Positions 21,225 to 26,267 of a stretch of DNA of 64,000 nt are shown piece by piece. How positions within the stretch are numbered: position 1 is the first letter of the stretch; the number at the start of each line of letters is the position of its first letter. This DNA is from Bacteroidia bacterium (GTDB taxonomy: Bacteria > Bacteroidota > Bacteroidia > B-17B0 > Aurantibacillaceae). The notes under the pieces were generated by a model. It was given only the letters and a program-made list of their open reading frames with translations, had not been told where the DNA came from and ran no database searches. The stretch spans positions 1-64,000 of the forward strand of contig JAEUTQ010000057.1 in assembly GCA_016787445.1 (NCBI GenBank), in the 5' to 3' direction. The position numbers and the translations under genes are program-made.

Positions 21225-21315
21225 AATCCTTTATTGCTTTTAACAAAAATAGTGAATGTTTTAACATAGGCAAATTTGCTTATGATAAAAATTGCATATA
21301 TGATGAATATTGTGC

Positions 21316-21540
21316 GTGGCATACCTGCGCAGTAATAAATTCTTAAAGGCTTTTGGGCAAAACTTAAAAAGGGTTAGGCTCGCAAAAAATGTATCGCAAG
21401 CCGATTTAGCTTACAATTGCGGAATGGAAATAAGCCAAATCAGTCGACTTGAAAGAGGTTTATTAAATACAGGGATTTCAAACATATATTTAATTGCAAA
21501 ATACCTAGAAGTTGAACCGAAAGAGTTGTTCGATTTTTAA
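21316..21540 (+). CDS. XRE-family helix-turn-helix regulator
   Basis: Short cytoplasmic DNA-binding protein, about 74 aa. A single HTH_3 domain is visible: FGQNLKRVRLAKNVSQADLAY and ISQISRLERGLLNTGISNIYLIAKYLEV. No ATG exists at the front; the start is either TTG at 21310 or GTG at 21316, and I give the GTG. The conserved domain begins 10 codons later, so either is possible. It is divergent from the S74 gene and its stop overlaps the stop of the ABC exporter by 4 bp. Its target is unknown. Confidence 0.75.
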   Translation: MAYLRSNKFLKAFGQNLKRVRLAKNVSQADLAYNCGMEISQISRLERGLLNTGISNIYLIAKYLEVEPKELFDF

Positions 21541-25218: not shown

Positions 25219-25227
25219 TTTTAAAAG

Positions 25228-25279
25228 AAGTAAGTGAGTTACTTTATAAAATTTTGGCTAAAGTAAGTAATTTACTTTA
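25228..25279. promoter_or_regulatory. Duplicated dyad operator between arginine decarboxylase and arginase
   Basis: AAGTAAGTGAGTTACTTTA at 25228-25246 and AAGTAAGTAATTTACTTTA at 25261-25279. Each is a dyad, AAGTAA-N5-TTACTT, and the two are 33 bp apart (about three helical turns, same face). They fill the 86-bp divergent gap and must overlap both promoters. The protein that binds is not identifiable from this window. Confidence 0.75.
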
Positions 25280-25304
25280 ACCGCATGTTAAGAAACTAAA
25301 ATAT

Positions 25305-26267
25305 ATGAAGGCAATGATTAAACCTATCCGAATAGTTGAAGTTAAAAGTGAAATTGGTGCCGGAACACGTGGTGCCAGTATGGGAATTGATGCTATTAAG
25401 ATAGCTGCCCTCGATTTCGGGAGTCCCTTTTTCAAAAAATTTAAAACCGTTGAAATTCCTAATGAAAACAACCTGCTTTTAGAGCCGGTGGTGAATGATT
25501 ATGCTAAGCGTATTAAAGGTATTTACAACCTGAATGAACGTTTAGCCAAGGAAATTTCAAAAATCATGACAAAGGATGAGGTTCCAATTGTATTAGCCGG
25601 CGATCACAGCTCGGCATTAGGAACCATTTCCGGTATTCGTATGGCTTATCCCGAGAAACGTTTGGGCGTAATTTGGATTGATGCACATGCCGATTTGCAT
25701 AGTCCGTATACCACGCCTAGCGGTAATATGCACGGAATGCCTTTGGCTTGTGTATTAGGAGAAGATAATAAAGATCGCCAGCAAAATAAACCCGATGACG
25801 AAACCATAGAGTATTGGGAAAAATTAAAAAACTTAGGCGGTATTGCTCCGAAAATTCAACCAAACGATTTAGTATTTGTAGCGCTTCGTGATTTCGAACC
25901 TCAGGAAGATTATATTATTAAGAAAAATAAAATTCGCGTCTTCAATTTACAGGAGATCCGCAAAAAAGCCGTTGAGCGTGTTGCCATCGAATCACTGAAT
26001 TATCTTGATCACTGTGATTTAATTTACGTAAGCTTTGATGTGGACAGTATGGATTCACGTATCTCCAGCGGAACAGGAACACCTGTACCAAATGGTATTA
26101 CAGAAAAAGAAGCCGGTAACTTGATTTATTACATCATGCGCAGTAAAAAAATATGCTGCTTCGAAATGGTTGAAATCAATCCAACACTTGATAAAGAAAA
26201 TTTAATGGCTGAAAATGCTTTTGAAATTTTACAAAAAGCAACTAATCAATTGAGTCACGATTTTTAG
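25305..26267 (+). CDS. rocF: Arginase (ureohydrolase)
   Basis: 320-aa cytoplasmic manganese enzyme that splits arginine to ornithine and urea. Metal ligands are H101 (GDHS), D126, H128 and D130 (DAHADLH), D245 and D247 (SFDVDSMD). The substrate-recognition segment SGNMHG (139-144) plus TGTPV (257-261) match arginases (human arginase has SGNLHG and TGTPV) rather than agmatinases. If it were agmatinase it would complete a putrescine pathway with the divergent decarboxylase; I favour arginase on the motif. Its stop codon TAG forms the start of a dispersed repeat (26267). Confidence 0.82.
   Translation: MKAMIKPIRIVEVKSEIGAGTRGASMGIDAIKIAALDFGSPFFKKFKTVEIPNENNLLLEPVVNDYAKRIKGIYNLNERLAKEISKIMTKDEVPIVLAGDHSSALGTISGIRMAYPEKRLGVIWIDAHADLHSPYTTPSGNMHGMPLACVLGEDNKDRQQNKPDDETIEYWEKLKNLGGIAPKIQPNDLVFVALRDFEPQEDYIIKKNKIRVFNLQEIRKKAVERVAIESLNYLDHCDLIYVSFDVDSMDSRISSGTGTPVPNGITEKEAGNLIYYIMRSKKICCFEMVEINPTLDKENLMAENAFEILQKATNQLSHDF

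Follow-up and report, generated by a model that had tools for sequence, protein, structure and literature searches.

The window, by which we mean the whole 64,000-nucleotide stretch analyzed, derives from an uncultured Bacteroidota bacterium and contains two divergent genes separated by an 86-bp gap (25219–25304). The leftward gene encodes a predicted fold-III PLP decarboxylase whose best solved relatives are the arginine decarboxylases 3nzp, 3n2o, and 3nzq. Its best matches to the NCBIfam SpeA/arginine decarboxylase models reach 155 and 150 bits, below the respective cut-offs of 369 and 624, and arginine is its assumed, not certain, substrate. The rightward gene encodes an arginase. A 76-residue HTH_3 (Cro/CI-type) protein is encoded at 21310–21540, 2.3 kb from the decarboxylase; this family does not recur among decarboxylase neighbors in relatives.

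Table 1. Genes and promoter features of the decarboxylase–arginase locus, in window coordinates.
Feature	Coordinates	Strand	Remarks
Predicted fold-III PLP decarboxylase, arginine decarboxylase-like, 465 aa	23821..25218	-	Pfam PF02784
Dyad 1, decarboxylase-proximal, GAAGTAAGTGAGTTACTTT	25227..25245	.	Matrix score 23.1 bits
Candidate decarboxylase -7 element, TACTTTAG	25258..25265	-	One mismatch to TAnnTTTG; overlaps distal dyad; inferred
Dyad 2, decarboxylase-distal, AAAGTAAGTAATTTACTTT	25260..25278	.	Matrix score 23.0 bits; center 33 bp from dyad 1
Arginase, 320 aa, divergent neighbor of the decarboxylase	25305..26267	+	TIGR01229, 234 bits, above the cut-off of 227.6

Two dyads lie within the gap. 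The preliminary description had read them as AAGTAA-N5-TTACTT repeats 33 bp apart; the two copies, their spacing, and the gap length all stand, with the 17-mers placed exactly at 25228–25244 and 25261–25277 (33 bp start to start), but the five-base spacer is not free. In relatives, about 92% of sites have T at position 8 and A at position 10, numbering from 0. With the spacer thus constrained, each site is a 19-bp palindrome of 9-1-9 architecture, for which a palindromic matrix gives the consensus AAWGTAAGT-N-ACTTACWTT. A genome-wide search, suggested in the preliminary description, recovered AAGTAA-N5-TTACTT without mismatch only twice in the 3.77-Mb genome, both times as the dyads of this gap. 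Single dyads with one mismatch number 53 genome-wide versus 78 for a reversed control pattern, and 12 dyads with at most two mismatches occur in the window versus 8.65 expected. Since single dyads are at background level, the signal resides in the pair.

Conservation was assessed using homologs of the decarboxylase and arginase from 60 relatives and a species-level genome collection. The palindromic matrix was trained on the divergent gaps, with a minimum of 15 bp as the sole spacing rule, and pairs were then sought within 300 bp upstream of the decarboxylase at any spacing from 19 to 69 bp. Under this free search, every distinct strong pair (25 bits or more) was spaced at 33 bp (35 pairs) or 34 bp (27 pairs), i.e., 62 of 62, as were 21 of 30 weaker pairs; shuffled sequences gave these spacings in 4%. 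None of 1840 dinucleotide shuffles reached 25 bits, their maximum being 18.3 compared with 46.2 bits in the window. Conservation of the pair persists although the gap ranges from 67 to 241 bp among the loci that carry it. Comparison of relatives identifies a real, conserved, gene-specific tandem operator. The possibilities raised earlier, that the dyad is absent from the corresponding gaps of relatives or occurs at random, do not agree with these results.

The pair was found upstream of the decarboxylase in most relatives examined, including members of the same family, members of further families in its class, and a single genome from a different class of the phylum. In this last genome, the pair, spaced at 33 bp, separates the decarboxylase from a divergent nitroreductase-like gene, an arrangement suggesting that the decarboxylase gene and its operator were inherited or transferred as a unit. 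Bacteroidales loci are mixed, with strong pairs (three loci), weak pairs, or none. A phylum-wide sample of 392 genomes, in which 14 candidates were scored per genome, yielded a strong pair in one genome besides the window's own, a count that probably underestimates the spread owing to the few candidates scored. The operator also occurs in Acidiluteibacter ferrifornacis S-15, a named strain whose genome has been sequenced, so it can be studied before the window's species is brought into culture. One genome with 7% contamination contains two decarboxylase/arginase pairs, with a strong match to the pair profile upstream of one and a weak, partial match (18.2 bits) upstream of the other. Genus g3 of the same family (two loci), together with a similar third locus, keeps the divergent gene pair and has no dyads. 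The operator was lost naturally in this genus, and its control is dispensable, given that the genes persist divergently without it; the loss could also help to identify the regulator as a protein that is missing there.

The preliminary description had assigned the site to both genes, a view that comparison of rearranged loci does not sustain. At seven loci where the decarboxylase stands alone, the pair is retained at 33 or 34 bp; seven stand-alone arginase loci have no pair. In five genomes, the arginase is encoded away from the decarboxylase, and the pair accompanies the latter. We also ran a sequence-only profile of the pair over 80 relatives, and all 30 of the best 30 places retrieved were directly upstream of the decarboxylase. 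A regulon extending beyond this gene was rejected, as the weak profile matches at other places show one dyad or none, and most fall within coding sequence next to unrelated genes. The pair thus tracks the decarboxylase, not the arginase, and is unique to that gene within each genome.

The position of the dyads relative to the promoter bears on the direction of control. In Bacteroidota, the -7 element is TAnnTTTG, located at -12 to -5 (PMC9723704). The candidate element for the decarboxylase in the window departs from this consensus at one position, and three relatives of the genus carry an exact TACTTTTG in the same place; a clear -33 element was not seen for this candidate promoter. Of 62 loci, 19 have a decarboxylase-directed TAnnTTTG at +13 relative to the distal dyad, 13 have one at +13 relative to the proximal dyad, and 15 have one 11 bp ahead of the distal dyad, whereas elements directed away from the gene occupy the mirror places in only 3 and 1; where the two overlap, the dyad arm TTACWTT supplies part of TAnnTTTG, such that only the following TG is independent. 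Because the dyads overlap or abut the core promoter or transcript start, repression is favored and appears the most likely mode of control. We consider it unlikely, though worth bearing in mind, that the pair instead serves as an activator site, or that its regulator activates one divergent gene while repressing the other. Many relatives have a divergent gap, and in many loci the arginase-near dyad is situated 31–42 bp from the arginase start codon; both features would suit such an arrangement. Against it, in most loci showing a decarboxylase -7 element, the pair coincides with this element or lies downstream of it, and the pair is retained without the arginase.

The search for a regulator was approached from the gene neighborhood, the literature, and the protein families encoded by operator-bearing genomes. 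Clustering the decarboxylase neighbors at 80 loci revealed no recurrent small DNA-binding protein, just one enhancer-binding-like reading frame in 4 loci. The literature search returned nothing on the motif or on a regulator of this decarboxylase in Bacteroidota. This agrees with the earlier proposal that the dyads, separated by three helical turns, are bound by a regulator not known to have been described for such a site. NrdR (TIGR00244) was not detected in the window's genome or in any of 80 relatives, while control genomes gave matches. Lrp/AsnC (PF01037) and GntR (PF00392) were not found in the window's genome or its seven relatives of the genus, with the AsnC-type domain being present in other families. 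No ArgR (PF01316) match exceeded the cut-off in 80 genomes, the window's genome giving a weak partial match of 21.8 bits over 31 residues. HxlR (PF01638) was not found in four operator-bearing genomes of the same genus. Absence from operator-bearing genomes excludes Lrp/AsnC, ArgR, NrdR, HxlR, and GntR or makes them very unlikely. PadR (PF03551) was not detected in one 99% complete genome that carries the operator, and with this single genome as the evidence, PadR is an unlikely regulator.

The preliminary description had named MarR/HxlR-type proteins as binding similar half-sites; the HxlR part is not supported, given the four genomes above, while 78 of the 80 genomes encode MarR (PF01047) and the remaining two have no strong operator. 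We regard a MarR family regulator as distinctly unlikely. MarR genes are present in every strong-operator genome among those searched, and MarR dimers bind palindromes of about the length of the 19-bp dyad. The two MarR genes inspected per genome in the genus (two of the three in the window's genome), however, adjoin YceI-like or efflux genes, and, except for a single weak match in coding sequence, no dyad lies near these or near the PadR genes of the genus. Genus g3, which has no operator, encodes MarR as well. Because MarR occurs whether or not a genome has the operator, its presence is uninformative.

Variation within the half-sites reveals whether the dyads are read as DNA or as RNA. Besides AAWGTAAGT, the half-site variants include AATCTAAGT, AATCCAAGT, and AATCCGGGT, and swaps from GT to CC or CT are uncompensated across the dyad. 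Mispairing at the fourth arm position affects 56 of 124 dyads and exceeds that in shuffles. Watson–Crick pairs at the most variable paired positions number 68 (fourth position, n = 124) versus 76.9 in shuffles, and 81 versus 87.6; the oppositions at the fourth position include 36 C–C and 16 G–G. Since half-site changes go uncompensated, the dyad is a DNA operator and not an RNA stem. A weak arm is nearly always opposite a strong GT arm, the pattern that a symmetric protein requiring a single good half-site would select for, and the opposite of that expected from an RNA stem. An RNA function, in which the inverted repeats form hairpins in the 5′ leader (as an attenuator, a terminator, or the site of an RNA-binding protein), is accordingly very improbable. 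Each dyad could fold into a hairpin and one terminator-like stem is present on the minus strand (25256–25282), but this stem is the distal dyad itself, compensatory changes are absent, the 33/34-bp spacing is fixed whatever the leader, in many loci the promoter and the distal dyad overlap, and no Rfam family matched at its gathering score. The chance that two similar AT-rich palindromes simply fell close together is negligible: single one-mismatch dyads are indeed no commoner than the control pattern in the genome, but the pair is conserved, spacing included, across many families and dozens of loci, which together with the shuffles refutes an accident.

Given these results, we favor, with a probability of about 0.72, a tandem DNA operator dedicated to the decarboxylase, on which two dimers of a putative regulator act cooperatively or as a tetramer to repress the gene. 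One dimer would occupy each 19-bp palindrome, and the two, 33 or 34 bp apart, would lie on the same face of the helix, where they may bind cooperatively or as a tetramer. Binding would repress the decarboxylase because the sites overlap or directly follow its -7 element. Repression would be most likely when polyamines, from the product pathway, are sufficient or when arginine, the substrate, is scarce. A divergent arginase, as in the window, may also fall under the control of this operator.

A bolder proposal, which we put forward only tentatively and hold to be doubtful, is that the pair is read by a new tetramer-forming repressor encoded apart from its target, i.e., a polyamine/arginine sensor that sets the first committed step of polyamine synthesis and has a one-gene regulon. 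If true, this single-gene regulon would have been kept across families of a class with no detected ArgR and, in the window's genus, no Lrp either. Polyamine and arginine regulation is little described in Bacteroidota; ArgR and NrdR were not found in the group, nor Lrp in the genus. A deeply conserved, gene-specific operator with strict geometry provides a ready bait for its regulator.

Several known operator systems share features with the dyad pair. HxlR/MarR operators have TTACT/AGTAA half-sites similar to the dyad arms, but HxlR is missing from operator-bearing genomes. ArgR/AhrC ARG boxes are likewise palindromes paired at arginine genes; they differ in being 18 bp long and about 3 bp apart, and ArgR did not exceed the cut-off in the 80 relatives. 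Lrp/AsnC operators consist of tandem palindromes in helical phase at amino-acid genes, an arrangement resembling that described here, whereas the window's genome and its seven relatives of the genus have no AsnC-type domain. NrdR, a repressor of ribonucleotide reductase, requires both of its boxes (PMC12051234). The dyads differ from NrdR boxes in sequence (19 bp, with an odd center) and in target, and no NrdR gene is present. In geometry, the pair is closest to this system: NrdR acts best with 15–17 bp between 16-bp boxes, corresponding to 31–33 bp center to center (PMC12051234), and both arrangements place two palindromic boxes approximately three helical turns apart at a promoter, here at 33 or 34 bp.
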